Positions 2,470 to 29,447 of a stretch of DNA of 64,000 nt are shown here, one piece after another. A program made the position numbers and the translations under genes. The notes below the pieces were generated by a model. That model ran no database searches, was not told the origin of the DNA, and saw only the letters and a program-made list of their open reading frames with translations. The DNA is from Natronobacterium texcoconense (GTDB lineage: Archaea > Halobacteriota > Halobacteria > Halobacteriales > Natrialbaceae): the NCBI RefSeq assembly GCF_900104065.1, contig NZ_FNLC01000001.1, forward strand, positions 682,001 through 746,000. The letters run 5' to 3'. Each line of letters opens with the position of its first letter. The stretch's first letter is position 1.

Positions 2470-3681
2470 GTGATGGATGAAGCAACCGTCTTGGAAGCTG
2501 TAATCGACTATCTGAGCCGTCAAGACGCGACTTTCTTTATAGATCCTGGTGGAGATCAAAGCTACGAGACGGTTCGAGAGCGGTGTACGGAACTTTCGAA
2601 CTGCGAGATTAACGACTCGATTAAAATCGGGAGAAAGATTCCTGATATCGTTGGAGTGAATGCACAGAACGAGATTTTTGCGGTCGAGGCTAAAGGAGAC
2701 GACTACCTCCGTAAAGGGATAGGCCAAGCAACCGACTACAGACGCGGTGTCCACAAATCCTACCTAGCCGCCGAAGCGACGGCTCTTTCACGGTTTGAAG
2801 ACACAGCGAAGGCAGCGGGTCTCGGTGCTATCCCCGTAAATCCTGATTCTGGGGAAGTGGCTGCAGATCAAGTCTCCGAACCCAACCCAAACATTGCAGG
2901 GACAGAGATTGCTGTCGTCCGTCGTGCCCTCGCTCTCAAAACAACCGAATTTGAATCAGGACGTCTCGATATACCACCGATGCAGCGGCCAGAAAATGCC
3001 TTACTGCCAATTCTGGCTCTCAAACTCGAAAATTGCCCAGAGACGCTTCATCAGGAGACTTGTGAACAGAAAATAGAGAATAGTGACGCGAATTACAGTG
3101 ATGCTTCAGATCGTCCAATACGTTTAGCAAGAACTCTGCAACTCATTGAGAAGGACGCACAAGGAAGACTCCGTCTTACTGACCATGGAGAAACAGCATA
3201 TACGATTATCAAAGGGATTCACGCCAACGAAGACAAAGGTGACGAATTGCAGGTGGGCACTATCGATGACTACCGGTCGTATCCAGAGATCGTTGCCTTC
3301 CTCCGGGATCGGTATCTTGCTGCACCCCCAATTCGTCTACTGGTGAAGATATTGGCTGATCAAGACGACTCGCGGATGGAGGTCAGCAAAATCCTGTCCG
3401 AGATTTCGCGTGAATCCCCAGATGTATTCCAGTCAGTGTTCTGTAGTGATGACGACGAGTTTCGAGATTTGCTAATGGATGAAAATCTATCAGATAGAGA
3501 TTTCCGGAAACAGATTCTCGAACTCACCATGGTCTCTTATCTGTATAATTTCACTCGGCAATTAGAGGTTATTGATATCTTAGAAACGGCTGACAAGACC
3601 TCCACTTCCGATGACTTAGTCGTGGGTGAGCTGGACTGGGAATGGGATCCAGAAAAGATCGGAAGAATTGGTGCGCTTTGA
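2470..3681 (+). CDS. PD-(D/E)XK nuclease-domain protein
   Basis: This 403-residue protein starts at GTG 2470 or, one codon later, at ATG 2473. The N-terminal 110 residues carry a restriction-nuclease core: D59 in KIPDIVG, then E73 and K75 in FAVEAKGD, and a helix with Q and Y (GQATDYRRG), the layout of PD-(D/E)XK enzymes. The remaining ~280 residues are not recognised; LTDHG.TAYTIIKGIH near residue 240 may be a small winged helix. It follows the Dna2-like gene by 61 bp on the same strand. GC is lower than in its neighbours, which fits recent transfer. A role in DNA restriction is inferred. Confidence 0.6.
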   Translation: MMDEATVLEAVIDYLSRQDATFFIDPGGDQSYETVRERCTELSNCEINDSIKIGRKIPDIVGVNAQNEIFAVEAKGDDYLRKGIGQATDYRRGVHKSYLAAEATALSRFEDTAKAAGLGAIPVNPDSGEVAADQVSEPNPNIAGTEIAVVRRALALKTTEFESGRLDIPPMQRPENALLPILALKLENCPETLHQETCEQKIENSDANYSDASDRPIRLARTLQLIEKDAQGRLRLTDHGETAYTIIKGIHANEDKGDELQVGTIDDYRSYPEIVAFLRDRYLAAPPIRLLVKILADQDDSRMEVSKILSEISRESPDVFQSVFCSDDDEFRDLLMDENLSDRDFRKQILELTMVSYLYNFTRQLEVIDILETADKTSTSDDLVVGELDWEWDPEKIGRIGAL

Positions 3682-3784: not shown

Positions 3785-4678
3785 TCACTCCTCTGTCTCC
3801 ACCTCGGTCACCCGATCCATGATATCGTCAAATGGGACGGACTCGAAATCGTCGGAAAGAGTATCTCTGACCACAAGATCAATCCCCTCAGCGAGCAATC
3901 CTGTGATCTCCGTTGTTATCTCGTCTCCCGACCGCTTTTGAGACTCCGCTTTCTTCAACGCGTAGTCTTCTCCATCGACAGTAACCTTCTCACCGTCCGA
4001 AAACACTGTTTCTGGCTTCTGTCCACCATCACTAGTCGATTCTGTTAATCGGTCCTCTACCGTATCACCTGTGGGATTCCCATCCGCGTCTAAGACAGGA
4101 AGTGTTAGCCGTTGATCATGCTCACGGACAATACTTGAAAGGTTCTCCGGGGAATCTGCGCCAGACGGATACACCCAAATCCTGTGACGATACTCTGCGG
4201 TTTCAATAGTGATGTCTGCTGTGTACTCGATTCGTCGAATCTCGAGTAGCTTGATCCCACACTTTTCAGCAATGTCTACTGCTCCAGGCTGATACCCGCT
4301 TCGAGATACATAGATCCCTTTATCCGCGTCTGAGTGTTCAAGATAGAACGCAAAACAGGCAAGGTCGTCAATTCCCTTCTCATAGTCTCCGCCTTTACAT
4401 TCGACGATCTTCATAATCTTGTTGTCGCCCTCTTCGATCCAGAGAACGACGTCCATTTCCTTCTCACCGAAGTCGCATTGAAGATCGTGCTTGTGTTTCA
4501 CAGTATTTGTTTCATTTTGTTGTTCAAGTTTCTCTTTAATAATAGCTGACACGATCTCCTCATACTCTGAATACTTAAGAGGCTCTATATCCTGAAGATG
4601 TCCAGTGTTGTGAAGATGTTCGAGTAGACGTTCCGCATCTTCTTCGTCTATATTACCATAGTATGTGAACCGCCGCAT
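3785..4678 (-). CDS. Mrr-like PD-(D/E)XK nuclease-domain protein
   Basis: I start it at the ATG at 4678 (MRRFTYYGN); a GTG at 4699 would add seven residues. The middle of the protein has a restriction-endonuclease-like core: D76 in KEMDVVLWIE, E93 and K95 in KIVECKGGD, then a helix and the strand GIYVSRSGYQPGAVDIA, as in Mrr/RecB-type nucleases that act on DNA. The C-terminal ~120 residues are acidic and unrecognised. It faces the upstream plus-strand nuclease gene convergently and lies 112 bp beyond the end of the ATPase operon on the same strand, so it may be its distal member. Confidence 0.55.
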   Translation of the reverse strand: MRRFTYYGNIDEEDAERLLEHLHNTGHLQDIEPLKYSEYEEIVSAIIKEKLEQQNETNTVKHKHDLQCDFGEKEMDVVLWIEEGDNKIMKIVECKGGDYEKGIDDLACFAFYLEHSDADKGIYVSRSGYQPGAVDIAEKCGIKLLEIRRIEYTADITIETAEYRHRIWVYPSGADSPENLSSIVREHDQRLTLPVLDADGNPTGDTVEDRLTESTSDGGQKPETVFSDGEKVTVDGEDYALKKAESQKRSGDEITTEITGLLAEGIDLVVRDTLSDDFESVPFDDIMDRVTEVETEE

Positions 4679-4789
4679 TAACACTAAGAGGTGTACCACT
4701 GTTTCCTACAGCAGTGGAACCGCCGGCTGAACCTCCAGCAACAGGAAATTTATGAATTCTATCCGTTTCTGTGGGTTCAATAAAGCTTG

Positions 4790-5950
4790 TTACTGAGTTT
4801 CCAACGTATCCTGTACCAGTTGCGGTTCGATCGTGTGCGTCCCGTCATCAACGGCCTCGTCAAGCACGCGACTGCAGATAGACAGTACCTGCCGAATATT
4901 GCCCTGCGACCGCTGAAGGACGACCTGTAGGGCATCCTCGGTGAATGGATCAAGCCCGGCCTGCCCATCGGTCCGTGCCGTCTCAAGGTAGCTTTCCACG
5001 AGATCGTAGAGTTGGTCGTCGGTCAACGGTCTGAGAGCGACTTCGTTCCCGATCCGCTCGGAGAACGCGTGATACTCCTGCATCACGTCCTGCCAGACCT
5101 CGGGCGCACAAGCAAACAAGATACTCAGGCCAGAACTATTCTGATCCATCAAGTGCCGGATACTGTTCAGCGTGGACTGCTTGTCCGCCGCTGACAACTG
5201 GGCGATGGATTCGAACTCGTCGATAAACACGTACACACCGATATACCCCAGATCCTGCAACAGGTTCTTGAACGAGGTAAACGCCCGGACAGCCATCGTA
5301 TCATCATCCAGCGCGGTATGGATCTCCATCGTCTTCCGCTGCTCATACCGGATACCTTCCCCCGTCAACCACTGCCAGGCATAGAGATCCGTATCCTCGT
5401 ACACCATGTGGACCATCGCCCGAGCAAAATCAGCGAACTTCGTCACATCACTCAACCGCTGAACCGCCCCTGGTACGATGTCGGACAACAGGACATCCCC
5501 ATCATCGATCAGGTCCTGCATCGCCCTGCCGCTCACCGGGTTTCGCTCCGTTTCATCCCGTGCCATTCGCGCAAGGTACTCGTAGGCAAACTCCTGCACC
5601 TGATCGAACCCGATATCGTACATGAACTCGTGGTAGATGTCGTGAAACCCCTCTCCGGGCTGAGCAACATATCCGACCACGACATCGTCGCGGTCACGGA
5701 CCAGTGACCGCGCATATTTCAGTGTATGGCTCTTCCCATTCCCATACTTTCCTGTCACCACCAGATGCTTCGACTTCCCGGTGCCGAGCAGCGTCGACAC
5801 TGTGTCACTCACCGCCTCCACAACGTGGTCCTGTCCACAGTAGATGATCGGATCCTCGGCAGGAACCGGACTATACGGGAATGGATTCTCCTCGAGACCG
5901 TACATGGTGTAATCGCGCGATTCGTCCGTGATGGTGAAACTGTCACTCAT
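4790..5950 (-). CDS. AAA+ ATPase (DUF2791/BrxC-D-like P-loop protein)
   Basis: This 386-residue protein has a clear Walker A (GKYGNGKS, K73) and Walker B (VFIDEFES, D244 E245). A sensor-like stretch ILFACAPEV follows, then a C-terminal helical lid. The opening YGLEENPFPYSP resembles the start of ORC/DnaA-type and BREX-associated ATPases, which couple ATP hydrolysis to DNA-bound complexes. Its start codon overlaps the stop of the winged-helix gene (5947-5950, ATGA), which in turn overlaps the TGT-like gene, so the three are translationally coupled and probably work as one complex. The order TGT-like, winged helix, ATPase suggests that the ATPase drives or regulates a base-exchange or restriction step. 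The precise subfamily is uncertain. Confidence 0.75.
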   Translation of the reverse strand: MSDSFTITDESRDYTMYGLEENPFPYSPVPAEDPIIYCGQDHVVEAVSDTVSTLLGTGKSKHLVVTGKYGNGKSHTLKYARSLVRDRDDVVVGYVAQPGEGFHDIYHEFMYDIGFDQVQEFAYEYLARMARDETERNPVSGRAMQDLIDDGDVLLSDIVPGAVQRLSDVTKFADFARAMVHMVYEDTDLYAWQWLTGEGIRYEQRKTMEIHTALDDDTMAVRAFTSFKNLLQDLGYIGVYVFIDEFESIAQLSAADKQSTLNSIRHLMDQNSSGLSILFACAPEVWQDVMQEYHAFSERIGNEVALRPLTDDQLYDLVESYLETARTDGQAGLDPFTEDALQVVLQRSQGNIRQVLSICSRVLDEAVDDGTHTIEPQLVQDTLETQ

Positions 5951-6861
5951 GGTTCTGGATCAAACGTGACCGCATCGTCGTGAACTGCAAGGTAGTAGTA
6001 CCGTTTGCCGTACTGTTCCACACCCGCCATGACCTGCTCCGTTGAATGCGTGGTCGTGACCAGTCCCTCTTCGTCATCCGCCAGTCGGATCTGCTTGATC
6101 CCCCATTCAGCATCTTTCGCCCCGGTATCGGTCGGTGCACCAAGGAGCTCCAGCTTTCCAATATTCTGACCTACAAGAGTTGTCAAGCCGGTATCGAACG
6201 CATCCCGATCACACCGAACACGCTCACAGAGAAATTCCCGCAGCTCCGGGATCGATACATACCGTTGCGACAGGTTGACTCCGGTCCGCTCCTCCAACTC
6301 ATCGAAGACCGCCAGCAGTACGAACGGGAAATTGGGGGGTACCGTAGATCGGTCCACGACATAGTACGTTCCGGTGAACGCGTTACGCTGGATCACTCCC
6401 AACCGCTCGGCCCAGTCACCGACGACCTCGACGCCGGTCTGATTAAACGCATACGGTGTGTGCTCGTTCCGGTCCTCTAACTCCGCCAGCAGGGTCTGCA
6501 ACTCGGCTGGTTGGATCTCCTCCAGCACGGAAAGGAACGCACCATAATGAGGACTCCGCGTCTCCAGGATGGAACTTACCTGCCGCCAGTCCTCATCCGT
6601 GACCGCCTCGTGAAACTGTTCTCCAACAGTCGTCACCCGATACCGGTCCACCTCGTCATCTCTACCATCATCCGTTGATTGCAGGGTCCGGATAAGATCG
6701 AGTCGCAGACTCTCCAGCACGATTGACCGAAGCCGCCGCTCAGTCGTGTCGAACTGCTCCTCAAGATTCGACATCGTCTGTGAACTGTTGAGACAGGCAT
6801 CCGTGATCTCTACCAGTCGTGCAAGCGTCACCGGCCGAACCGTAGGACGTTGATCGCTCAT
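5947..6861 (-). CDS. Winged-helix protein of the TGT/ATPase operon, function unknown
   Basis: I do not recognise a family for this 304-residue protein. Residues 10-60 (LVEITDACLN ... TERRLRSIVLESLRLDLI) and 110-175 look like winged-helix units: helix-rich with a terminal strand such as YYVVDRS. A further helical module covers 195-240. It has no catalytic motif that I can see. It overlaps both neighbours by 4 bp (ATGA junctions at 5947-5950 and 6858-6861), implying fixed stoichiometry with the ATPase and the TGT-like enzyme. A DNA-binding or substrate-selecting subunit is the simplest inference. Comparison with DpdG-type proteins would be informative. Confidence 0.6.
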   Translation of the reverse strand: MSDQRPTVRPVTLARLVEITDACLNSSQTMSNLEEQFDTTERRLRSIVLESLRLDLIRTLQSTDDGRDDEVDRYRVTTVGEQFHEAVTDEDWRQVSSILETRSPHYGAFLSVLEEIQPAELQTLLAELEDRNEHTPYAFNQTGVEVVGDWAERLGVIQRNAFTGTYYVVDRSTVPPNFPFVLLAVFDELEERTGVNLSQRYVSIPELREFLCERVRCDRDAFDTGLTTLVGQNIGKLELLGAPTDTGAKDAEWGIKQIRLADDEEGLVTTTHSTEQVMAGVEQYGKRYYYLAVHDDAVTFDPEP

Positions 6862-7892
6862 GCAAACCTCCTGACCCGCTGTTTCGCGGCTTGGTACGCC
6901 CGCTGTGTGACCTCGTTCCCTTGGAACCGGAGATCCAGATATGTCTCCACGTCCTCACCTGCCGCCACCATATATCGGAACCGCCGGAGTTCCATCGTCA
7001 ACGCCCAGAGATTGTGTTGCGTCAGTGCGTCCCGGTCCTTGCGCAGTTCCACCAGCGGCGTATCACGGCAGACCGGACAGGAACACGGCAGGTACGAGAG
7101 ATCCGTCACATGAGACAGTTCCTGCCCGCCAAACCCCGGGATCAAGTAGTTCCGGTTCGCAGCACTCCGGATGAACGCAGTCGAATCAAAACTATCGACA
7201 CCGAGGTACAGCAATAAGGGCTGATACACTAATCCACCCAGTCCGTACACGTGAAGATGCTTCTCAGTTGTCCGCCGAGCCGCCAGAATCAACCGAATAA
7301 CCTTCTCGTAATCCGTTCGGACCGGAACAAGACTCCCGAGGGCATATCCATCAAACTCTCCGTTCTTCTCCAAGTAATTGATATTATTCCGGACTGTCTC
7401 CGAATCAAGTCCGTGGACACTGGCGAACAGAAGTTGTTCCCCATCGTGCCGGTCACTCGCAGCAAGGGCGTATTCAGTACTCTCGGATATCCGGCGCTGG
7501 TTTTCCGCATCACGATTCTCTCGTGACAATGGACGGTCCACCGTTCCCAGGATGTCTGCACCGATCTGGCGTTGGGTCTCCAGTGTCCGTTCTGGGGTAG
7601 TGTCAACCTTGTCGGCCTGAAAGTCGTATCCCCCACTGTCGGCAAACACCACTGTATCTGAGGGGACACCCATCTCTTCCCGGAGTGTCGTCCCATCAAG
7701 AAGCCGATTCCATTGCGGTTCACGTTGCCTGATCGCTCGTGCGTTCACCATCGCCGTCTGGAGATCTGGGATCGCCTCAATGTACGCCGGTGTATTGTCA
7801 GAGGACCGCTTTCCGATATTCCGGACCGGGAATAAGACTGGTGTCTCCACGCTCCCGTGGGGGGTCTCGAGCATTTGTTGTCTGTACAGCAT
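6858..7892 (-). CDS. TGT-fold base transglycosylase (archaeosine-TGT-like catalytic domain)
   Basis: This 344-residue protein keeps the features of the tRNA-guanine transglycosylase fold: the general acid/base motif FADSGGYDFQ (D85), the TPE...Q.IGADI segment (about 99-115), the LGSLVP phosphate/base loop (185-190), the nucleophile motif GVDSFDST (D233/D236, matching GVDMFDCV of TGTs), and a zinc site C270-x-C272-x2-C275...H293. TGTs swap guanine for a 7-deazaguanine such as preQ0. The archaeal tRNA enzyme (TgtA) carries extra C-terminal domains including PUA, absent here, so the target is probably not canonical tRNA; DNA is plausible as for DpdA. It is the first gene of an overlapping operon with a winged-helix protein and an ATPase. 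Confidence 0.8.
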   Translation of the reverse strand: MLYRQQMLETPHGSVETPVLFPVRNIGKRSSDNTPAYIEAIPDLQTAMVNARAIRQREPQWNRLLDGTTLREEMGVPSDTVVFADSGGYDFQADKVDTTPERTLETQRQIGADILGTVDRPLSRENRDAENQRRISESTEYALAASDRHDGEQLLFASVHGLDSETVRNNINYLEKNGEFDGYALGSLVPVRTDYEKVIRLILAARRTTEKHLHVYGLGGLVYQPLLLYLGVDSFDSTAFIRSAANRNYLIPGFGGQELSHVTDLSYLPCSCPVCRDTPLVELRKDRDALTQHNLWALTMELRRFRYMVAAGEDVETYLDLRFQGNEVTQRAYQAAKQRVRRFA

Positions 7893-7932: not shown

Positions 7933-7948
7933 CTTGGTCAAAACCAAG
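7933..7948. promoter_or_regulatory. Palindromic operator candidate between divergent genes
   Basis: CTTGGTCAAAACCAAG is a perfect inverted repeat with 6-bp arms and a 4-bp centre. It lies between the TGT-like operon (start 7892) and the HxlR-like regulator gene (start 8003), flanked by AT-rich stretches AATAAAA and AAGTTATTT that could be the two promoters. A dimeric winged-helix regulator encoded next door is the obvious candidate to bind it. Confidence 0.45.
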
Positions 7949-8002: not shown

Positions 8003-8278
8003 ATGCTCGACGACGTTCGGGAAATCGTCTGTCCGAAATGGTCGATCGAAATCCTTGGGTTCCTCGCTAAAAACAGTCCGCAGAACTACAGCGACATTGC
8101 CGAAGAGTTCGACACATCGAGCGATATCATCGTTAACCGGCTTCAACAATTAGTTGATACCGGGCTTCTGGAACGTGACGAGCGAAGTGTAAAAGACGTC
8201 CAGTACTCAATCACAGAAGACGGGGAAGAACTCATAAAGATTCTCGAAGATGCCGACAACCTTCTCGACGATCAGTAG
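8003..8278 (+). CDS. HxlR/ArsR-like winged-helix regulator
   Basis: This 91-residue single-domain protein has the HxlR-type opening CPKWSIEILGFL followed by a helix-turn-helix (YSDIAEEFDTSSDIIVNRLQQLVDTGLL) and a wing strand ending YSITEDGEELI. Such proteins bind DNA as dimers and often control the adjacent divergent operon; the palindrome at 7933-7948 is a good target. Its 3' end overlaps the convergent DUF6884-like gene by 7 bp (8272-8278), so it sits between the two TGT-type modules and could couple their expression. Confidence 0.75.
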   Translation: MLDDVREIVCPKWSIEILGFLAKNSPQNYSDIAEEFDTSSDIIVNRLQQLVDTGLLERDERSVKDVQYSITEDGEELIKILEDADNLLDDQ

Positions 8279-8970
8279 TCACTCAGGCCCGACTGATTCG
8301 GATCTACGGTACAGTACCGTTCTATCTCAGATACATTCGTCGGCGTATTTCCGTTCTCCCGGTGCAATGCGAAGTTCTCGATAAATTCCCCTTTCAACGC
8401 AATCACGATTGTTCCGTACTCTTTCGCATCTGTTGTTCGGGCCGATACTGATACAGCGTTCTCATACTCGGTAGCCAAGTCTTCACTGTTGAACAGCACG
8501 ATGAAGGTTTCTTCCGGGATAAGGGAAACAAGGTCGTCGATTTGTGCACTCCGGTAATAGTCGCTGCCCAACGCGAAAAAGATGATATCGTACGCATTGT
8601 CAGAAATGCGGTCACGCAGATCGTCGTAGATTTCGAGTTGCTTTGCCCGCTCGTCAACCTCCGCGGTGGTCATATCGGAGAATGTGACGTCGTACAGTGG
8701 CAGTGATTCTGACGCGTCAACGACGCCGAATCCAGCACTGATGAAGACACGGTCGACGTCGTCGCCCGCTTCTTCGAACCGTGTCACAGCGTCGGAGATA
8801 CGTTGTTGCTGCCGCCCTTCGTAGAGCTGATCAGCAGGCTCGACGTAGACATCATCCTGCTGAACGAGTTCTGTCCGGGGAGTTGAGTCGATCGTCTCTG
8901 TATTGACTGGCTCGTACCGGGTCTTCCCTTTCTTATCGCTTGAACACTGGTCGACGATGAGTACCTGCAT
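8272..8970 (-). CDS. DUF6884/YaaA-like protein, partner of DpdA
   Basis: This 232-residue protein has an N-terminal Rossmann-like strand with a Cys/Lys motif (DQCSSDKKGK, C9, K13, K14), then ADQLYEGRQQQR and FISAGFGVVDASESLPLYD, the pattern of the DUF6884/YaaA-like family (call from motif resemblance). It starts 2 bp after the stop of the DpdA gene, so the two are cotranscribed. In bacterial Dpd systems a helper converts the inserted preQ0 nitrile to an amide, and this protein is a candidate for such a step; that is inference. Its last seven residues, QSGLSDY, are the same as those of DpdA but use different codons at four of seven positions. Confidence 0.65.
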   Translation of the reverse strand: MQVLIVDQCSSDKKGKTRYEPVNTETIDSTPRTELVQQDDVYVEPADQLYEGRQQQRISDAVTRFEEAGDDVDRVFISAGFGVVDASESLPLYDVTFSDMTTAEVDERAKQLEIYDDLRDRISDNAYDIIFFALGSDYYRSAQIDDLVSLIPEETFIVLFNSEDLATEYENAVSVSARTTDAKEYGTIVIALKGEFIENFALHRENGNTPTNVSEIERYCTVDPNQSGLSDY

Positions 8971-8972
8971 GG

Positions 8973-11168
8973 TTAGTAGTCGGAGAGCCCTGACTGCATC
9001 ATTGGTTCCGGAACGAACTCGCTATCGTAGTCCAGTCGCTTGAGGACTGCGGCACGTAGATCTCGTGGGTCATCGATAATATGGACGTTACACCCGGTCG
9101 ATTCGATGGCCTCTACCAGTTCCTTTTCTGGTGTCCAGTTTTTCCCGTCGATGAAGACGTCTTGGTACCGGGCGCAGTACTCTTGCAGTTCGTTCTGAAT
9201 TGCACGAGGTGCGAAGGAGATCGACGTCGGTGATGCGTCCCACCACTCGTGAATTCCGTTCGCGGTCACGGCCCCAATCTCTGCGACAGGGAGATCATGC
9301 ACTTCTGACCAGAACTGGGGTCGGTTATCCTGAAGGAACTTGTCAACAGATTCATGGACAGAAAGGCCGGTCCCGCCCCGCGTCAGGACCGCCATCTTCG
9401 GGAGAGCTCGCTCGAACTGGTCGTAAAACCGGCGCGTATTGTGGAAGCCACGGCGACGGTTCCGGTTGTTCCCCCGGAAGATTGCGACTTCGATGCCCTG
9501 TTCTCGGCAGATCCGGCAATCACACTCACGCCATGGTTCGTGGCGTAACATCTCTTTGTATGCGTCGAGGTAGCCTTCGTCTTCCACATGGGCAGCATAA
9601 TTTTGCACCAGTATCCACACCTGATCGAACGTGCCGTACTCACCGGACCGTTCCTCTCGTTTGCTAATTTCCTCTAGTTTCGTTGGTGACCAGTCATCGA
9701 AGACGGTTCGAACACGGTCGATCAGGTCTTGGTACTCACTGAACGGGACCGGGTTGTCCGGGTCATCCTTTCGCAGTAGTTTCGCAAGACGACCACGGAA
9801 CTTGCCGCTGAAGTTTGCTCGAAGTTTCGATCCGTACGCGTAATCACTCCGAAGTTCCTCTTTGACATCTCGGAGGAGAGACTGATCATACCGGTCGTCA
9901 TGCCGGTGTTCTCTGAGGTATGGTTCGAGATTGTCTAAGGAGACGACCGCTGACTGGTGCCAGTCGATTAGCGCATCCGCGATTGACTCGTCGTTGTCGA
10001 ACGCCCGCAACGCGTATAGCATCTCTTGGCCGCGGAGCGCAGTCTCTACCGCTTCTTCGACCGAGGCTCGACTGGACGGATATCGGATGCGGATGGCGTC
10101 GTACCGGTTGTCACTGTCCAGATGGTAATTATCGCCCCCGGTCCACGCGGCACGGAGCATACTGGCGCTGTCGAAACTGGCCATCCCGCTCCGGCCGATG
10201 GTCTCGAAGGCTCCGGTCTTCGCGAACCCGAACACGTGGGTATCAACGCGGGTCTCGTGTTCGCGCTCGAATTCTTTCACTCGGTGACCAACCGATGTTA
10301 CACAGTCTTTCACGTCTTCTTCGGAACTCCCGGCGACACCACCGATCCCAAGATACTGGTAGCCCAAGTCGAGGACCTGCTCGGCAGCCCGGCCATAAGA
10401 TCGAGGATCCCAGCCCTGGATCGCGACCATCAACCGGAACGAATAGTCTCCGGCATCGTAGAGCTCTTTCATCTCTTTCGCGTTCGCCAGCGTCAGTTCA
10501 TACCGGAACGACATATCGTCATCCCGATACACTGCATGGGGATGGGTATCCAGGTCAGCCAGTATGGCTGAGAGCGGTTGATCGAAGATCGCTGGGTCGA
10601 ACTCTTGGACATCGGTGCCGTAGATCGATGGCTCATATTCTTGGACGTAGTCTGGCCACTCAGCAGGCCACTCATCGGTCATCACGTCGACTTCGCTCGA
10701 GATCTCGTCAGGGATGTCCGATGTTGAAAATCCGTCTGGGAACGCTCGTTCGTCTAGATACAAGCGTGCCGTATGCCCGCTCCCGAGTACGAGGTGATCA
10801 ATAGTGACGCCGACAGAGACATCAAGCGTTTCGTAGAACTCGAGCATTTCTTCGTTGCTGTACGGGGGGAACGGGAAGGATTTGTACCCCCACGCACCAC
10901 AGTCACTGATCGTTGGAAGCCACTTCGGGATGTCCAACATCGGCGCATCATAGACGCCATTTTCAGTGATGCGCTCATATTTGGATGGCGTATCCTCTAC
11001 CTGCTCACGAGAAATTAATACACCGTCGATTGGTGTCGACTCGTAATCGAAGATATCCCAAATATACGCGGTATCACGTTCACTTGGATCTAGTTCTGAG
11101 TGCTCATCGTGGATAAAGTCATAGTTCGCGTCGACGAAGTCATCCCATTCTGGAACGTAGAACCGCAC
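8973..11168 (-). CDS. dpdA: DpdA-type DNA guanine transglycosylase
   Basis: This 731-residue protein matches the DpdA layout. It has WLPTISDCGAWGY (D89), a PPYS..E..EFY segment, GVTIDHLV (D124), the barrel strands VAIQGWD and GIGGVAGS, HVFGFAKTG, the nucleophile motif ASFDSASMLRA (D333), and a zinc site C549-x-C551-x2-C554 followed by EVAIFRGNNRNRRRGFHN with H576. Bacterial DpdA puts preQ0 into DNA in place of guanine. A ~130-residue C-terminal extension ends in QSGLSDY. The ORF opens with GTG at 11168. An AT-rich TATA-like stretch lies only about 10 nt upstream, so the real start may be a little downstream. The following gene (DUF6884-like) begins 2 bp after the stop. Archaeal hosts supply preQ0 through the archaeosine pathway. 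Confidence 0.85.
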   Translation of the reverse strand: MRFYVPEWDDFVDANYDFIHDEHSELDPSERDTAYIWDIFDYESTPIDGVLISREQVEDTPSKYERITENGVYDAPMLDIPKWLPTISDCGAWGYKSFPFPPYSNEEMLEFYETLDVSVGVTIDHLVLGSGHTARLYLDERAFPDGFSTSDIPDEISSEVDVMTDEWPAEWPDYVQEYEPSIYGTDVQEFDPAIFDQPLSAILADLDTHPHAVYRDDDMSFRYELTLANAKEMKELYDAGDYSFRLMVAIQGWDPRSYGRAAEQVLDLGYQYLGIGGVAGSSEEDVKDCVTSVGHRVKEFEREHETRVDTHVFGFAKTGAFETIGRSGMASFDSASMLRAAWTGGDNYHLDSDNRYDAIRIRYPSSRASVEEAVETALRGQEMLYALRAFDNDESIADALIDWHQSAVVSLDNLEPYLREHRHDDRYDQSLLRDVKEELRSDYAYGSKLRANFSGKFRGRLAKLLRKDDPDNPVPFSEYQDLIDRVRTVFDDWSPTKLEEISKREERSGEYGTFDQVWILVQNYAAHVEDEGYLDAYKEMLRHEPWRECDCRICREQGIEVAIFRGNNRNRRRGFHNTRRFYDQFERALPKMAVLTRGGTGLSVHESVDKFLQDNRPQFWSEVHDLPVAEIGAVTANGIHEWWDASPTSISFAPRAIQNELQEYCARYQDVFIDGKNWTPEKELVEAIESTGCNVHIIDDPRDLRAAVLKRLDYDSEFVPEPMMQSGLSDY

Positions 11169-11947: not shown

Positions 11948-12754
11948 TCACCCGTCGATCTCTTCGAGAAACTGTGGCGTGACCTCGCGAGCACCTTCTC
12001 GTGTTGCTCGACGACCGGCCTGGAGGAGACGTTCGAAGGCATCCCGACAGTCTCCACCGTTGTCTGCGACGCTGTCTGCTACGAGTTCCAGCACTTCAGG
12101 CTGGACAGCACCTGGTCGGAAGGCCTGTTCGACCCGGTCTTTTAGAATCGCCAGCAGTTCCTCGGCTGTATAGGGTTTGAACTCGACAGCTCGGCAGTTC
12201 AACCGGCTCCAGCTGCGCTCATCGAGGACGAACCCGTCGGGAGGAATGTTCGAGATGAGGACGAGACCAAGCTTGTTCTCGGTCTGCTGACTCAGCATGT
12301 GAAGATCGTAGACGATCGCGGCCTTGTCTTCCAGTTGATCGAACTCGTCGAGCGCGATCGCGACGCTTCGGTTCCTGTCGAGCCATTCGCGGAGTTTCCC
12401 GAGCCGTTCGTCGACGGGTTTTCCCTTCCGGGGTGCTGGATATCCTAACTGGATGAGAATCTCGGTCAGAAGCGCTGGCCGCGTACTGTACTGCCAGCAG
12501 TTGATCTGGACGGTTTTCACACCGGCCTCGGTCTCTAACGCCTCGAAGACGTGATTGACACAGGTGGTTTTCCCACTTCCGGGCGGCCCATACACGAGGA
12601 GGTTCTCCGGCGTCTTTCGTTTCGTCAGGGGCCGCAGTGCGTCTCGAATCGTGTGAAGCTCGGCGTCGCGTTCGACTGGGGGATGGTGTGGATGGTCGGC
12701 TGTCAGGTATTCTTCTGCCCGAATGATTTCGCTTCCGTAGCTGTCGTCGAACAT
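11948..12754 (-). CDS. Orc1/Cdc6-like AAA+ ATPase lacking the C-terminal winged helix
   Basis: The N-terminus YGSEIIRAEEYLTADHPHH..P.R is the usual archaeal Orc1/Cdc6 opening. Walker A is VYGPPGSGKTTC and Walker B is AIALDEFDQL, followed by a sensor strand LVLISNIPP. Orc1/Cdc6 proteins bind origins and load the MCM helicase. This one is 268 residues against a usual ~400: the AAA+ and lid domains are present, but the protein stops at TGA 11948-11950 before any winged-helix DNA-binding domain. It is divergent from a second, full-length Orc1/Cdc6-like gene. It may be a plasmid-type or regulatory ATPase rather than an initiator. Confidence 0.75.
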   Translation of the reverse strand: MFDDSYGSEIIRAEEYLTADHPHHPPVERDAELHTIRDALRPLTKRKTPENLLVYGPPGSGKTTCVNHVFEALETEAGVKTVQINCWQYSTRPALLTEILIQLGYPAPRKGKPVDERLGKLREWLDRNRSVAIALDEFDQLEDKAAIVYDLHMLSQQTENKLGLVLISNIPPDGFVLDERSWSRLNCRAVEFKPYTAEELLAILKDRVEQAFRPGAVQPEVLELVADSVADNGGDCRDAFERLLQAGRRATREGAREVTPQFLEEIDG

Positions 12755-12954
12755 AGCAGTCTCACGCTCCGAACTAGGGACAATCTATCAGTCAGGATTC
12801 AAAAGGCGAGCCCGGGACGGTATTTCGTATGTGTTGCTCTAGACACATGTTCGAAACTAGTTATCCCGCATCAATAGATACGTTCGTCCGCTGGCTGGCA
12901 ACTGAAGCCAGGGGTCGCCAAAACGGTGTAGCGACTGCTCCCCCTCACGGTGTT
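12755..12954. other. Intergenic region between divergent Orc1/Cdc6-like genes; possible origin
   Basis: These 200 bp separate two divergent Orc1/Cdc6-type genes, a common place for haloarchaeal origins and their promoters. I see one short inverted repeat (CTGGCT/AGCCAG near 12890-12912) and an AT-richer part (12830-12875) but no convincing repeated ORB-type motif. The function is inferred from position only. Confidence 0.3.
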
Positions 12955-13995
12955 ATGCCACCATCCATCATCGACTCACGGCCACCGCTGGAACACTCGT
13001 ACATCCCAACACAGTTCGTCGGACGCGACGAATTCCAGGACGCACTCAGCGACAGCTTCGCCGTCGAAACCGACTCTCCTAGACAGCACCTCCACGTGTA
13101 CGGCGTCCGCGGAACGGGGAAGACACACCTTCTCCAGCAGTTGCTGACGACGTTCCCACCGACGGTGACGACCTGCTATCTCTCCGGCATTCCCCACGAC
13201 ACCCAGTACAAAGCACTCGAGCGGCTCTATCAACAGCTCACGGGCACCGAACTAGGTACCGGCCACCACGTCGCCGACGTCCAGCGACAGATCACCGACC
13301 AGGTAACGCTTCCGACAGTGATTGTCCTCGACGAGTTCGACTTCCTGCTGTTGAACGACGGGGACGACCTGCTCTACTTTCTCACCCGGCTCGACAACGT
13401 AACTGTCATCACCGTCTCTGCGAACACCTCGACCCTCGAGGAATCACTCGACGACCGGACCTACAGTTCGTTCCGTCCCCACCACCTCGAGCTCGAACCC
13501 TATTCACCGGAGGAGGCTCACCAGATACTCGCCGACCGAGCGCGACAGGCACTCAGCCCGGACTCGATCGAACAGTCCGTCCTCTCGCACATCGCAGAGG
13601 TGACCCAGAACATCATGATTGGGTTGACGTGGCTTCGCGAGGCCGCCGACACCGCGGACGAGCAGATCACACAGGACCTCGTCGACGACCTCCAGTCGAC
13701 CGCCTATCGAGAATACGTGACGTACCTGCTCGACGACTTCACGCCGCACCATCGCCGCTTGTACGAGGCGATCGAACGGCTCGATCACGAACTCGAGCCA
13801 CCGTATCTGACCGGGACGGTATACGACGAGTACCAGCGGCACTGCGAAACGGCTACGGTGGCCCCACTGAGTGAACGTAGGGTGAGCGATTTTCTGACTC
13901 ACCTCGAGTTGCTTCACCTCATCGAGACGACGTACCACTATGGCGGGACGAAAGGGAAAACCCGTGAAATCAGGCTCGTTGACTGGCAGTCATGA
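12955..13995 (+). CDS. Orc1/Cdc6-family ATPase
   Basis: I start at ATG 12955 (MPPSIIDSRPPLEHSYIP); the frame opens earlier, but that part is cysteine-rich and unlike the rest. Motifs: a QFVGRD.F box, Walker A VYGVRGTGKTHL, Walker B IVLDEFDFLL, sensor 1 TVSANTSTL, and a C-terminal winged-helix-like region (about 240-346) ending YGGTKGKTREIRLVDW. At ~346 residues it is near the family length. It probably acts at the replication origin of the integrated element or plasmid from which this region derives. It is divergent from the truncated Cdc6-like gene. Confidence 0.75.
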   Translation: MPPSIIDSRPPLEHSYIPTQFVGRDEFQDALSDSFAVETDSPRQHLHVYGVRGTGKTHLLQQLLTTFPPTVTTCYLSGIPHDTQYKALERLYQQLTGTELGTGHHVADVQRQITDQVTLPTVIVLDEFDFLLLNDGDDLLYFLTRLDNVTVITVSANTSTLEESLDDRTYSSFRPHHLELEPYSPEEAHQILADRARQALSPDSIEQSVLSHIAEVTQNIMIGLTWLREAADTADEQITQDLVDDLQSTAYREYVTYLLDDFTPHHRRLYEAIERLDHELEPPYLTGTVYDEYQRHCETATVAPLSERRVSDFLTHLELLHLIETTYHYGGTKGKTREIRLVDWQS

Positions 13996-14001
13996 TCAGA
14001 T

Positions 14002-14397
14002 TCAGAAGAGATCGAGTAAGTTCGTCTCCTCGAGCTCATCGAGTTCGCGTCGGACGTCGCGACGATCGGCCAGCAGGTCCTGCCGGTCACGCCAGTGGGT
14101 TCGCCGTTCGTCACGGAGGTCCTGGTAGAACGATTCTATCCGGGACTTGAGCCGGTCGCGTTCGCCGTCCTTACCGGTCGACCGTGTATAGAGGAGTTCC
14201 AGTCGATCGACGTACCACTGCAGTTTCGACTCGAGTTCGTCGACGGCCTGATCCAGGAGTGCAGTGCGGGTCTCCAGTTCCTGATCGATCCGCTGTAGCT
14301 CGTCCTCGAGCCGCTGGCGTTCCTGTTCGTGTGACCGGTCGAGGAACTCCTCGATGTCGAACTCTGTGAATGCCGGGGTGGAGCGTTCGTCTTCCAC
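14002..14397 (-). CDS. Coiled-coil protein
   Basis: This 131-residue protein is almost wholly helical with heptad-like spacing, rich in E, R, D, L and Q (RLEDELQRIDQELETR..., RRDVRRELDELEE). No enzymatic motif is present. Its stop lies 6 bp from the end of the convergent Orc1/Cdc6 gene, and it follows a 48-residue ORF on the same strand by 32 bp. A structural or DNA-binding accessory role in the integrative element is possible but not shown. Confidence 0.6.
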   Translation of the reverse strand: MEDERSTPAFTEFDIEEFLDRSHEQERQRLEDELQRIDQELETRTALLDQAVDELESKLQWYVDRLELLYTRSTGKDGERDRLKSRIESFYQDLRDERRTHWRDRQDLLADRRDVRRELDELEETNLLDLF

Positions 14398-14429
14398 GGA
14401 CGAGTATTATGGAGATAGCCGGTTGTGAG

Positions 14430-14576
14430 TCACTCCTCACCCGGTTGCGATAGCTGTCGGTACTCTCGTGCCTTCTTTTGGTAGAGCTTCGGCAATGCCT
14501 CGATCTCTTCCTCGGTCCACTCGTTGACTTCCCGGAGCAGCTGTTCGGCTTCCGCCAGTCTAGAGCGTGGGGCCAT
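14430..14576 (-). CDS. 48-residue helical protein
   Basis: The ATG at 14576 opens a 48-codon frame (MAPRSRLAEAEQLLREVNEW..., ending RQLSQPGEE). It has a helical, acidic composition like the next gene and lies 32 bp upstream of it on the same strand. The family is unknown. Codon use (third-position G/C) supports coding. Confidence 0.45.
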   Translation of the reverse strand: MAPRSRLAEAEQLLREVNEWTEEEIEALPKLYQKKAREYRQLSQPGEE

Positions 14577-14673
14577 ATAGAGATAGTCGTGAGGCGTTCG
14601 TTTACCTGTGTGGACAGACTACGCTTCATTTGGGACGATCGGTGAAATAGATCACACCAAGATAATTCTTGGA

Positions 14674-15909
14674 CTACATCTCATCGAACTCTTCGAGTTT
14701 GTCGAGCACACCCGCCTCTTCTAGCTCCGCCAGCCGCTCAATGACTCGTTCTTTCGTCTCTGCGTTCGACTGAGCTTCAAGGCTGTTTGGACGGCCACAC
14801 TGTCTGCACTCGGTGTGTTGGCCTTCGTTCGCTGCTCCACAGAAGGTGCACTCCCAGTTCTCGTCTGGGTCTTCTGTCGTGTCGAGCCCGTACTCCTTGC
14901 GGATCGCCTGGTTGACGTCGTCGTTGTTCAGGTGGACGTAGACCTTCGCCCGGCTGGAACCGGGGACCCATCCCGCGAACTTGTTGAGCTGTTCGTAGCC
15001 CATGAAGGTCGCGACCTCCGTTAAGCGAGTATGCCGAAGGTTGTACGGTCTTCTCTTGCTTTCGGGAATATCGGCGCGTTCACAGGCATCCTTGAAACGG
15101 TTGAGGAAGCCGTTGTAGTTCATCCTGTCTCGAAGATCGGGTGTGTATTCGCACTGGTCGTCGTGGAACCGAGGTATCTTGCCACAGCCCCGGCATTTCT
15201 GCTGTTCACGTTTCACCCAGAGCGGTGCTGAAGGGTCGTCGATGTTACCCACTTCGCCGCCGAGTGGATGTTGAGCGATCCATTCCCGGAGTGTCCGTCC
15301 CGACCGGACGAGTTGGTTGTTCCGATCTGGCGTTCCCTTCGATCCTTCGAGGAAGATGAAGTCGCCTTTCCCGTTGCTCGTGAAATCGCTGATACTACAC
15401 TCGAGGAGTTCACCGGGTCGGGCGGCAGACTCGTAGAGAACGCTGGTGAAGGCACGGTCACGTGTATTGGAGAAGTTCCGGAACAAGCGTTGGCGTTCGT
15501 CTTCGGTGAAGAGGTCGTCCCGTGTGATCGGTGTCGCCTTCTTCTTGGTCACGGTGAAGAAGTCGACCTTGTCCGGGTGCTCGTGGCCGCCGTTCTCGAC
15601 CTTGTAGAACTTCTTGATCGTGCCCTTGAACTTGTGTTTGGTCGCTTCAGCGTAATCACTTCTGTTGAGATCAGCAAGAACCTGCTTGAGTTCGTCTTCA
15701 GACGCGCCTTGCAGCCGGAACCCGTCGGGCGTGAACCGCTTCAGCAGAGTTTTGAAAGACTGGATCTGGCGTTCTTGCTGGACGTCACTGATACCCTCCG
15801 CTGCCTGATGGTTGATAAACCGGCGTACTGCTTTTGCGTTCTCCGAGTGGACCTCGTTTTCGAGATTTTGAAGGCTGCGTTGTACGTCGACGTGTTTGGT
15901 GGTGGACAT
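14674..15909 (-). CDS. Tyrosine recombinase (integrase) with C-terminal zinc ribbon
   Basis: This 411-residue protein has an N-terminal SAM-like core-binding domain (to ~115) and a catalytic domain with the Arg in SAARPGELL, the H-x-x-R box YNLRHTRLTE and the nucleophile Tyr in SRAKVYVHLN. A treble-clef-like insertion (CRGCGKIPRFHDDQC) lies within the catalytic domain and a second ribbon (CTFCGAANEGQHTECRQC) follows it, a form common in haloarchaeal XerC/D-like integrases. It would cut and rejoin DNA at an att site. Upstream (15961-16051) are two inverted repeats that may be arm or core sites or regulatory elements. Confidence 0.85.
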   Translation of the reverse strand: MSTTKHVDVQRSLQNLENEVHSENAKAVRRFINHQAAEGISDVQQERQIQSFKTLLKRFTPDGFRLQGASEDELKQVLADLNRSDYAEATKHKFKGTIKKFYKVENGGHEHPDKVDFFTVTKKKATPITRDDLFTEDERQRLFRNFSNTRDRAFTSVLYESAARPGELLECSISDFTSNGKGDFIFLEGSKGTPDRNNQLVRSGRTLREWIAQHPLGGEVGNIDDPSAPLWVKREQQKCRGCGKIPRFHDDQCEYTPDLRDRMNYNGFLNRFKDACERADIPESKRRPYNLRHTRLTEVATFMGYEQLNKFAGWVPGSSRAKVYVHLNNDDVNQAIRKEYGLDTTEDPDENWECTFCGAANEGQHTECRQCGRPNSLEAQSNAETKERVIERLAELEEAGVLDKLEEFDEM

Positions 15910-23233: not shown

Positions 23234-25237
23234 CTATTCGGGGAGTGAGCTGGTCTCGCTGAAGTCCTGAAACAGGTGAAACGTGATCTGATCACGTGGG
23301 ATATCGCGTTCCGCTATCCGTTGTCGTAGCCCTTTTTTGACGATTTCGGTTCGGCAGATGATCCAGACAGCGATGTCGTTCTCAAGGTGCTTTTCCACGT
23401 GCTCCAGTTCCCGTGGTTTGTTTTCCATCGCGACCTCGACTGCCAGGCCTGTATTTCCCATGCTGACGTAGACGTCCGCATCATCACGTTCAAGCTCGGC
23501 CGTCCAGCCTGCCTCTTCGAACCGGTCTTTGATTCGGTGTTGCCAGTAGCGATGGACGATGCCGCCTCGCCCCTCGAATCCGGGATCGACGTCGAGATTG
23601 TCTTCGACGTACTCCTGCCCGTGCTGGGTGAGCTCCAGTAACTTCCGTTGGTCCCCACCTTTGACCTTTCTCTCGATAACGAGCCCGTGGTCAACGAGCT
23701 CGTTCTTCAACTTGTTCCCCTTGTACCGACTCGGGAACTGCTGGTATCGCCCGAGCAACGGCTTGAACGGGTATTCAACCACGTCTTTGAGGAGGCGTTC
23801 AGCATCTCTCGACACTTCCTCTTCACCGTGACCGTCGCTGGACCCCGTCTTGGCCCGCTCTCCTTTCTGGCCAGCACTGAGTATGTGGTCTAACCGGGGT
23901 GCGATTTCACGCGGTTCGCAGGAGAGTTGCTGCCACGCTTCGCGTTGGTACTTCTCCAGTTCCTGATCGGTGATCGTCTTCTCCACACTGTAATTCCGGA
24001 GGTGTACTGGCACTGGATCTCTATTCCCAACCTGAACGATCGCCTCCCCAACCTCGAGCCGTTGTGCGAACGCTTGCTGGCGGTCGGACAGCGCCATCGA
24101 CTCCGCAATCGCACGAAACTGTTTCTGGTCGCTGGTCGGCAGCAACACCTTGGTATCGGTGTTGGCCTTGATCGAGTCGGTGAGTTTCGACGCTTCCTGA
24201 TCCGCGACGACGAGCCCTTCACCGAACTCTCGCATCTTCGCGGTCAGTTGATCGATTTCAGGGATACCCGCGGCGTCCTGGCGTTCCTTGTAGACGGAGA
24301 ACACCTGTTTTCCCTCGTCGAGAAAGAAGACGTGCTCGAGACCAGTGTCTCGCTGGTTCTGTGCCAACCGGTACTCGTAGACGGACGCAAAGAGGATCTC
24401 CATCAGGAAGTTCTGGAGGTCTCGGCTGAGCCCGTCGAACTCGAACACGATGTTCCGATCGAGCAGCGTGTCCAGGGACGGGCCGTGGCTACAGTCGAAG
24501 ACCGTTCCGGCAACGAGGTTCATCGCTTCCAGTCGGTTGAGGACGGTGTCACGGTAGTTCGACGTCTTCCGGACGTAGTTGATGTTCTCGTCCCACATCA
24601 GGAGTTCGAGCTCGTGGAGGCTCGGATACGGTGGCGAGCGGTCGTTGAACAGATCGTAGAGCTTGTAGAGGTTGACTACGTGCTTCAGCAGGTAGTTCTT
24701 GGAACCGGACAGTAAGGCCGTCGCGTGGCCGAAGATTTCGGCGAAGACCTGTGCCCAGCGTAGCAGCGGGACTCCATCTGGTGGCTTCAACGGATTGAAC
24801 TTCAGCTCCGACCACGGCAACACCAGGAGATCGTCGTACTCGTGGATGAGATGGCGGTAGTCCTGTTTCAGGTCGAAACTCCAGAACGGGGCCTCGAGTT
24901 GGGACATCAGATTGTAGAACAGTGTGGTCTTTCCTGATCCCGACTGTCCGACTGCGAGAAGGTGCTTGGTGAGGTCATCGGGACCGATGCCAACGAGCCG
25001 GTTCCGCGGTGTTTCACCAAGGTGAACCGATCCGCAGTGAGCGTCGTCAGGGAATGGATAGTGCTGCTGTTCCGCCGCCTTCGCTGCGAAAATCGTGAGC
25101 GCATCGTATATGATCGACCGACTACTGGAAACCATTGCTGCCTTGAGCAACTGATCGATCTGGGGGTCAGTGATCTCGAGATCGTCGGCGAGTCGCAGGA
25201 GGCGTTCTACCCGTGGATGGTCCCGTGTTCGTCGCAC
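23234..25237 (-). CDS. HerA/TraG-like ATPase with C-terminal winged helix and nuclease-like domain
   Basis: This 667-residue protein has Walker A AVGQSGSGKTT (K103) and Walker B VFFLDEG, with the DFGEGLVVADQEAS-type stretch typical of VirD4/HerA motors, which pump DNA. After the motor come a winged helix (about 490-560) and a C-terminal domain with DADVYVSMG, VEVAMENKPRE and DIAVWIICR, the D...ExA...K layout of PD-(D/E)XK-like or replication-relaxation-type domains. This fusion would join a DNA pump, a DNA binder and a possible nuclease. It is part of the conjugation-like region and precedes the nuclease-like gene at 21908-23146. Confidence 0.75.
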   Translation of the reverse strand: MRRTRDHPRVERLLRLADDLEITDPQIDQLLKAAMVSSSRSIIYDALTIFAAKAAEQQHYPFPDDAHCGSVHLGETPRNRLVGIGPDDLTKHLLAVGQSGSGKTTLFYNLMSQLEAPFWSFDLKQDYRHLIHEYDDLLVLPWSELKFNPLKPPDGVPLLRWAQVFAEIFGHATALLSGSKNYLLKHVVNLYKLYDLFNDRSPPYPSLHELELLMWDENINYVRKTSNYRDTVLNRLEAMNLVAGTVFDCSHGPSLDTLLDRNIVFEFDGLSRDLQNFLMEILFASVYEYRLAQNQRDTGLEHVFFLDEGKQVFSVYKERQDAAGIPEIDQLTAKMREFGEGLVVADQEASKLTDSIKANTDTKVLLPTSDQKQFRAIAESMALSDRQQAFAQRLEVGEAIVQVGNRDPVPVHLRNYSVEKTITDQELEKYQREAWQQLSCEPREIAPRLDHILSAGQKGERAKTGSSDGHGEEEVSRDAERLLKDVVEYPFKPLLGRYQQFPSRYKGNKLKNELVDHGLVIERKVKGGDQRKLLELTQHGQEYVEDNLDVDPGFEGRGGIVHRYWQHRIKDRFEEAGWTAELERDDADVYVSMGNTGLAVEVAMENKPRELEHVEKHLENDIAVWIICRTEIVKKGLRQRIAERDIPRDQITFHLFQDFSETSSLPE

Positions 25238-25387
25238 AGGGGCTGTTCCGATGCCGAGACTCGGGTATCTGTGGGTAGGGGGTGGTTCGGATGGAGCAGC
25301 CCCCGCGGGCTACCCGTTTCCTCCCCACCGCTGTTGGCAGTAGCTGGCTAGGACTCCTGCATGCTGTAATCGGCTCGTGTGGACCGG

Positions 25388-26356
25388 TCAGGCGTCGACC
25401 TCGTGGACGTCCAGCAGCTCACGGATGGACTCGGTTTCGTCTTCCCAGTATTCTTCCTCCTCGGGATCGTCGGATTCGAGCAACTGGGTTGCACGGTTCG
25501 TGACCGCATTCTCCCCAAGAATTTCTGGGTGTGGGATACCGTCTCCGTACTCGAGGAGTCCGGCGGCCCGTTCGTAGGCATCATCCAGGGCATACTCCGG
25601 GATGTCTTCCTCGGTCAGATGAGTGAGTGCGTAGCTCGCGGCGTTGTACGTCTCGTACAGGGTTGGTGCATCGGTATCCTCGACTTCCTCGTGAAGTGCG
25701 GTCAGGAGATCCGGGGTTGGGTTCTCGAGTAGTTCGTCGATTCCGAGATCGTAGAGCACGAGCAATGCCTCGTCTAAGTTCATGAGTTCGCGTTCCTGGG
25801 CATCTGCCAGGCGTTGTTCGACCGTATCGACACCATCCACCATCGAGTCGACGGCGTGGTACGCCAACTGTGGCTGGAACGGTTCGCCGTGGGTCTGCTC
25901 AAAGCTGTGCTCGGCGACGAACGCGGTCATTCCGTTGCTACAGACGAGGCGTTCGGCTCCGATATCGTACTTGACGCCGTGGTATCCCGAGTGGCCGGAC
26001 CGGGCGTGGAGCTGTAACTCGATCTGGTCGCCTTCTCGAGGCTCTATCGATTGCTCCAGGCCAACTTTGGCGCTCATCTTGTGCCGTGTCTCGGAGAGCG
26101 AAACGTGGCCCTCCGGATTGAGATCGTGTTGCTCGACGCCGTGGCCGATCGCCTCGAGGATGTCGCCGTACTGGATTACGTTATAGAAGTCGGTGCTGCT
26201 GGAAACCTCGCCTGCAAGTTGGGGGTCGTCTTCGTCGGTCCAGAGACTGTCTCGCCAGGGAACTGGTTCCCATGCATCTAAATCACCGTGGTAAGCATAC
26301 ACTTGATGACGTTGGACATCCGGTAATCGTTCAGCAGTTTGGTAGAGACCGTTCAA
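25388..26356 (-). CDS. DUF932 plasmid/phage-type protein
   Basis: This 322-residue protein shows the DUF932 features: YGDILEAIGHGVEQHDLNPEGHVSLSETRHKM, then RLVCSNGMTAFV and a long acidic helical tail. DUF932 proteins are common on plasmids, ICEs and phages, often near the replication or transfer genes; their biochemical role is not established. It lies 150 bp upstream of the HerA/TraG-like gene on the same strand. Confidence 0.75.
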   Translation of the reverse strand: MNGLYQTAERLPDVQRHQVYAYHGDLDAWEPVPWRDSLWTDEDDPQLAGEVSSSTDFYNVIQYGDILEAIGHGVEQHDLNPEGHVSLSETRHKMSAKVGLEQSIEPREGDQIELQLHARSGHSGYHGVKYDIGAERLVCSNGMTAFVAEHSFEQTHGEPFQPQLAYHAVDSMVDGVDTVEQRLADAQERELMNLDEALLVLYDLGIDELLENPTPDLLTALHEEVEDTDAPTLYETYNAASYALTHLTEEDIPEYALDDAYERAAGLLEYGDGIPHPEILGENAVTNRATQLLESDDPEEEEYWEDETESIRELLDVHEVDA

Positions 26357-26461
26357 ATCGTTGAACTGGTAATGTTCGTCTTGAATCTTGTATCACCCTT
26401 ACTGAACTCAAGGAGGAAGAATGAGTTGTACTCGAGGGGACACCGTATTTCGATTGTACAA

Positions 26462-26941: not shown

Positions 26942-27035
26942 CTCCTCTGGAAAACCATGGTTGAGGGTATCAATGTCTCATCACCTAAGGAATGAGGTGC
27001 TCCCCTTGTTGAAAAGGAAATCTAGTGTGGAGTGA

Positions 27036-28091: not shown

Positions 28092-28172
28092 AATGATATA
28101 TTGTTATCCGGGTCCTAAGATGGATTACCGATCGGATTCCAAAAACGGAATTCGATTCGGGACAAATCAGCT

Positions 28173-28523: not shown

Positions 28524-28526
28524 AAA

Positions 28527-29441: not shown

Positions 29442-29447
29442 AAACCT

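Follow-up and report, generated by a model that had tools for sequence, protein, structure and literature searches.

In the bacterial Dpd system, guanine in DNA is replaced by 7-deazaguanine, which serves as a self-mark. The accounts of its islands that we consulted include DpdB, its usual helper; an extensive survey that required both dpdA and dpdB reported bacterial phyla only (PMC11888242). A DpdA of Haloarcula vallismortis has been noted without mention of its neighbours, and the halovirus HVTV-1, which carries dPreQ1 and no DpdA, presents a puzzle (PMC6884629). Here we analyse a locus in a 64,000-nucleotide stretch of the haloarchaeon Natronobacterium texcoconense (the window; coordinates are window positions 1–64,000, C1 denotes whole-contig numbering, and L- and G-numbers designate fetched loci and genomes). 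The locus encodes a DpdA and a DpdC-like protein together with a triad of genes for a second transglycosylase-fold (TGT) enzyme (TGT2), a tandem winged-helix (wHTH) DNA-binding protein and an AAA+ ATPase. With modest confidence, we think it probable that this is an archaeal Dpd-type restriction–modification system in which TGT2–wHTH–AAA substitutes for DpdB and cooperates with DpdA in inserting preQ0 into DNA. Because the published survey required dpdB, it could not have detected such DpdB-less loci.

The triad lies on the minus strand at 7892–6858 (TGT2, 344 residues, catalytic domain only), 6861–5947 (wHTH) and 5950–4790 (ATPase, 386 residues), with 4-bp overlaps at both junctions; the TGT2/wHTH overlap is retained in 35 of 39 other haloarchaeal loci. 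The DpdA (8973–11168) and DpdC-like (8272–8970) genes are directly upstream on the same strand. A first-pass annotation of this DNA had described three overlapping genes for a TGT-fold enzyme with intact Asp residues and zinc site and no tRNA-binding extensions, a winged-helix protein and an ATPase like those of bacteriophage exclusion (BREX) systems, and each of these descriptions withstood the analysis below. Its remark that the gene set is unlike the classical dpd cluster is also borne out (DpdB is missing, and the second TGT, wHTH and AAA genes are added), and the three-gene linkage, which it proposed to look for in other genomes, is found in dozens of them. By contrast, its suggestion of a separate modification or defence system has to be given up. 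DpdA and the DpdC-like gene adjoin the triad, and no intact triad without DpdA was present among the genomes examined, a co-occurrence that rules out a separate defence system lacking DpdA. Because of these upstream genes and a neighbouring operon encoding the DpdJ helicase, we regard the triad as a partner set of a Dpd system.

The 731-residue DpdA, a DNA-guanine transglycosylase homologue, scores 279 bits against the NCBIfam DpdA model (cut-off 200; PADLOC 5e-76), and its Q251, D333 and C549/C551/C554/H576 are invariant. The DpdC-like protein matches PADLOC DpdC (1.6e-8), with a score under the cut-off of Pfam DUF6884, and is predicted to convert dPreQ0 to dADG; many haloarchaea have a 967-residue form in which DpdC is joined to the DpdA C terminus. 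QueC is encoded elsewhere in the source genome, and 21 of 40 loci have genes for QueD, QueE, QueC, FolE or the YhhQ transporter next to the core.

Across 391 Halobacteria genomes from 86 genera, TGT2 (threshold E ≤ 1e-60) and DpdA each occur in 56 genomes and 37 genera, and 55 genomes are common to both (Fisher p 6e-65, uncorrected for shared ancestry). The wHTH query has matches, a few of them weak, in 62 genomes and 38 genera. There are two exceptions to the pairing: in G166 the contig ends just past DpdC, and TGT2 would lie beyond the contig edge; in G034 the triad has decayed, the wHTH gene being cut to 60 residues. A further genome, G003, keeps the wHTH and AAA genes and a TGT2 remnant of 50 residues. 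The triad is present in 39 of 40 fetched loci, with DpdA within the same 20 kb in 37, and the same core is found on several haloarchaeal plasmids. The pairwise distances among TGT2 sequences are correlated with those among wHTH, AAA and DpdA sequences (0.83–0.90), as expected for co-inherited genes, in a comparison that had no outside control.

Scanning genome contigs with the ATPase returned one non-haloarchaeal relative, in Methanoregula, and a phylum search from there yielded five further methanogen TGT2 genes (53–57% identity). In five of these six methanogen genomes the complete TGT2–wHTH–AAA set is present and DpdA lies about 10–17 kb from TGT2; three of the five share the u259/BrxC-like/DpdJ/MZB/nuclease module with the source genome. 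The methanogen loci yielded no DpdC, and they would accordingly be predicted to carry dPreQ0 and the haloarchaeal loci dADG. The sixth (G465) has TGT2 and wHTH and neither AAA nor DpdA, a gene set that fits decay. A virus-borne system was considered and rejected: viral contigs held no relatives of the AAA protein or TGT2, and phages gave only distant tgt matches.

The DpdB family (PF14072, DndB/DGQHR ATPase) has no match in the source genome and matches in 2 of 60 triad genomes, both weak and one lying 0.8 kb from TGT2. One of the two weak matches is a DndB-domain frame between DpdC and TGT2, on the opposite strand, in L071 (G273:C1:843914-844129). Of 18 plasmid dpdA loci, 12 have DpdB only, four a second TGT only (in Picosynechococcus, Nostoc, Paenibacillus and Haloarcula), two neither as far as detected, and none both (p 0.005). 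In more than one lineage, then, a second TGT seems to stand in for DpdB. Such a replacement may have arisen more than once, because the Paenibacillus second TGT is closer to DpdA.

The plasmid loci vary in their other contents. Those of Picosynechococcus (L164:1074-9403) and Nostoc (L168:6740-15257) have a DpdC–DpdA fusion followed by a DEAD/DEAH helicase, the second TGT and another helicase, without DpdB. The Paenibacillus locus (L178:5411-19044), also without DpdB, runs queE–queD–queC, a VUT transporter, DpdA, a second DpdA-like TGT, a DpdH-like NTPase and DpdJ. Nine alphaproteobacterial loci (L182-L190) have a DpdB gene on each side of DpdA. In Deinococcus plasmids (L166:11974-14861 and L167:11974-13266) and D. 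taeanensis (H120/H127), short TGT-like proteins adjoin or are fused to a DEAD/DEAH helicase or lie near a DUF6884 gene, and DpdA was not seen in the stretches inspected. On an Aulosira plasmid (L163:3820-11038), genes for a HerA-like protein, a metallophosphoesterase and an SMC/Rad50-like ATPase are followed by a TGT-like gene. On a Haloarcula sinaiiensis plasmid (L165:10997-11470), DpdA and TGT2 are separated by an EVE-domain gene that is a candidate reader of modified bases.

A divergent gene for a 91-residue helix-turn-helix (HTH) protein (8003–8278, plus strand), a putative repressor of the TGT2 operon, separates DpdC from TGT2 in the window and, in the same place and orientation, in several other loci. 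The palindrome CTTGGT-TTTG-ACCAAG (7933–7948) is just 5′ of the TATA-like TTTTATT of TGT2. In eight loci with the HTH gene, namely the window and L037, L038, L043, L054, L069, L070 and L073, the 100 bp upstream of TGT2 contain a palindrome of this kind, ACTTGGT-N4-ACCAAGT or a variant, at 50–56 bp 5′ of the TGT2 start; none was seen among the examined loci without that gene. It looks like a putative autoregulated operator of the TGT2 operon.

The triad forms an operon of its own, with a putative operator and a divergent regulator; the TGT2 active site is complete; and several loci have DpdA–DpdC moved or inverted with respect to the triad. These features would suit a second DNA modifier that is independent, has target sites or a base of its own and acts beside DpdA rather than with it. 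Such a modifier would need no DpdA, yet intact triads are always accompanied by DpdA in the genomes examined, and we consider this explanation unlikely, if the least so of the alternatives.

TGT2 scores 109 bits against Pfam TGT, and its predicted structure (pTM 0.88) has as its best match 1iq8, the archaeal tRNA transglycosylase ArcTGT of P. horikoshii. The 344-residue model covers the catalytic half alone of the 577-residue ArcTGT (TM 0.86/0.52), and no PUA or other tRNA-binding domains are present. D85 and D236 align with D95 and the nucleophile D249 of ArcTGT, and C270/C272/C275/H293 with its zinc ligands C279/C281/C284/H307. The Asp pair and the zinc ligands are invariant across 34 haloarchaeal members and the methanogens, which suggests that TGT2 is catalytically active in its proposed role. 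The base-contacting Gln169 of ArcTGT corresponds to His160 in all haloarchaeal TGT2 proteins and Methanoregula, and to Gln in four other methanogens. The idea that His160 marks lost activity is weakened by the methanogen TGT2 proteins in the same gene context, four of five of which have Gln at this position.

An initial tree that included DpdA had long-branch problems. In the final tree, built without DpdA, haloarchaeal and methanogen TGT2 proteins form one clade (98/94) apart from TgtA (100/99); the Dpd-linked TGTs of cyanobacterial plasmids join the TGT2 clade, which may be long-branch attraction. TGT2 scores 146.6 bits against TIGR00432 (TgtA), below the cut-off of 350, and the other TGT-domain places of the genome are TgtA and an adjoining ArcS-like gene at C1:338–341 kb. 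Because these genes sit elsewhere, TGT2 is not the ordinary tRNA enzyme of the host, an identity that the first-pass annotation had allowed for and that we rule out.

Eukaryotic tRNA TGT is a heterodimer of QTRT1 and QTRT2. Given this precedent within the family, and a second TGT standing where DpdB would, TGT2 could be catalytically inert and serve to keep DpdA on DNA, the part that QTRT2 plays for QTRT1. We judge this improbable, since the nucleophile, the general acid/base Asp and the zinc ligands are invariant in haloarchaea and methanogens, unlike those of a degenerate partner.

The wHTH protein matches no Pfam family, and its winged-helix fold is supported by structure prediction (pLDDT 85). 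The model matches SspB of the Ssp phosphorothioation system over 229 residues (Z 9.7) with a root-mean-square deviation (rmsd) of 15, indicating similar domains in a different arrangement, and BrxA over 147 residues (Z 7.9, rmsd 3.5) within residues 3–172. The protein has no sequence match to DUF4007, and a genome-wide DUF4007 search was silent for its controls too and hence uninformative. The likeness to SspB and BrxA is one of plan, recognized from the predicted fold rather than from a sequence family. A published analysis groups SspB, DUF4007 and BrxA as tandem modules for DNA binding, whose partners are ORC/Cdc6-type ATPases and a modification enzyme (PMC12839542). The AAA+ ATPase scores 68.9 bits against Pfam BrxC_BrxD (cut-off 22.2) and matches PADLOC BrxD at 8.5e-14; its Walker A motif GKYGNGKS and D244-E245 are invariant. 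Neither PglZ nor a methyltransferase was found among the locus genes scanned (C1:670947-695995).

Directed into the window from outside is a plus-strand operon that begins at L004:6947 and ends with a nuclease at window position 2408. It encodes, in order, 389- and 259-residue proteins that match no Pfam family and that we read as winged-helix proteins, a 1136-residue BrxC-like ATPase, the DpdJ helicase (PADLOC 6.7e-54), an MZB-like protein and a PD-(D/E)XK nuclease of about 1058 residues, the C-terminal part of which occupies 1–2408 of the window (plus strand; PDDEXK_1 3.7e-16). A DpdH-like protein is present in some loci; DpdD, E, F, G, I and K were not recognized among the scanned genes of the source locus.

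The triad keeps its order while the restriction modules vary, and in 19 of 40 loci no such module was seen within 20 kb, a count that leaves room for modules elsewhere in those genomes. This constancy leads us to place the triad in the modification half of the system. It also speaks against assigning the triad to a restriction or sensing half, in which TGT2 would read the mark of incoming DNA or remove it, with the ATPase signalling to nucleases. In favour of that assignment, BrxC/BrxD-type ATPases and BrxA-like proteins act in BREX exclusion as well (PMC12839542); we give it a low probability. Modification of RNA or tRNA by TGT2, for example upon infection, is very improbable: its nearest solved fold is ArcTGT, but it has no tRNA-binding domains, the host has TgtA and ArcS elsewhere, the tie to DpdA is strict and its partner has a DNA-binding fold.

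The mechanism that we infer for modification, complex formation, DpdB replacement and restriction would run as follows. The archaeosine pathway of the host would supply preQ0, which DpdA would exchange for guanine in DNA, and DpdC would convert it there to the amide (dADG). TGT2, wHTH and the ATPase would form a three-protein, ATP-driven DNA-targeting unit replacing DpdB: the wHTH protein would dock on DNA, the ATPase would oligomerize and open or license the site, and TGT2 would pair with DpdA in a heteromer and share in the exchange, perhaps acting on the opposite strand or in another sequence context. The DpdJ-helicase/BrxC-like/PD-(D/E)XK operon would restrict unmodified DNA.

Several points weigh against this scheme. 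The 7-deazaguanine in the host DNA is a prediction from gene content, and co-occurrence is no proof of physical contact. The exclusion between DpdB and the second TGT comes from 18 plasmid loci, several of them closely related. TGT2 may use a different base, because His160 replaces Gln169 of ArcTGT in the haloarchaeal proteins. In addition, phage DpdA works without any such partner (PMC6884629).

A bolder proposal, which we put forward tentatively and think somewhat doubtful, is that two active and different transglycosylases, DpdA and TGT2, exchange DNA bases together with an ATP-driven SspB/BrxD-like loader. Dpd systems would then comprise a DpdB-dependent class and a second-TGT-dependent class, the latter in archaea, cyanobacteria and Firmicutes. 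If the scheme is right, Dpd DNA modification also reaches archaeal host genomes, where it is widespread, and DpdA gains a new obligate partner set. The Haloarcula vallismortis contig on which DpdA was placed (AOLQ01000002; PMC6884629) contains the whole locus. This species is the host of HVTV-1, and the locus may bear on the dPreQ1 puzzle. We found neither the second TGT nor the triad described in print, in a search made largely without subscription papers, the original Dpd papers among them.

Downstream of the AAA gene is an Mrr-type nuclease (3785–4699, minus strand; Pfam Mrr_cat 25.4 bits, cut-off 21), an accessory gene with no relative in 40 other loci. A 403-residue protein (2470–3681, plus strand) matching no Pfam family has relatives in L038, L063 and L072, again next to the core, and is a possible accessory restriction gene. 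Past the locus, positions 11948–15909 and 23234–34535 hold two Orc1/Cdc6-type genes, an integrase and TraG/TraC-like conjugation ATPases, and G+C falls from about 0.62 to 0.50–0.60 from about C1:670 kb onward. Because of this G+C drop and these genes, the locus and its surroundings look like an integrated element.

Compared with host TgtA, TGT2 has the same catalytic fold, both Asp residues and the zinc site, but lacks the C-terminal tRNA-binding domains, falls in a separate clade and is only 27% identical. The ATPase belongs to the AAA+ family of type-2 BREX BrxD, above the Pfam cut-off, but its partners are TGT2 and wHTH rather than PglZ, PglX and BrxHI. Type-4 BREX and Ssp systems pair an SspB-like binder with an ORC/Cdc6-type AAA+ ATPase and a modification enzyme (PMC12839542). 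The triad resembles this layout in plan, with a base-exchange enzyme apparently in the chemical role that a PAPS-reductase-type sulfur enzyme has in SspBCD/type-4 BREX phosphorothioation. BREX-Related Capture (BRC) likewise joins a BREX-like ATPase and a DNA-binding module with a TGT, and has PglZ, DUF6079, HerA/FtsK, an optional GNAT and, according to its authors, no DpdB or DpdC (PMC12839542). The source locus, in contrast, has a true DpdA and a DpdC-like protein, and no PglZ, HerA or GNAT among the scanned genes. The cyanobacterial and Paenibacillus plasmid loci share DpdA, a second TGT and the lack of DpdB, but the partners there are DEAD/DEAH helicases or a DpdH-like NTPase. Bacterial Dpd (dpdA–K, Salmonella Montevideo type) shares DpdA, a DpdC-like protein, DpdJ, a DpdH-like ATPase in some loci and nearby preQ0 genes. 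The archaeal loci differ in having, instead of DpdB, a second TGT, an SspB/BrxA-like wHTH protein and a BrxD-like ATPase, and in a restriction operon with a BrxC-like ATPase, an MZB protein and a PD-(D/E)XK nuclease. Having no DpdB, the source locus is a variant of Dpd rather than a classical member.

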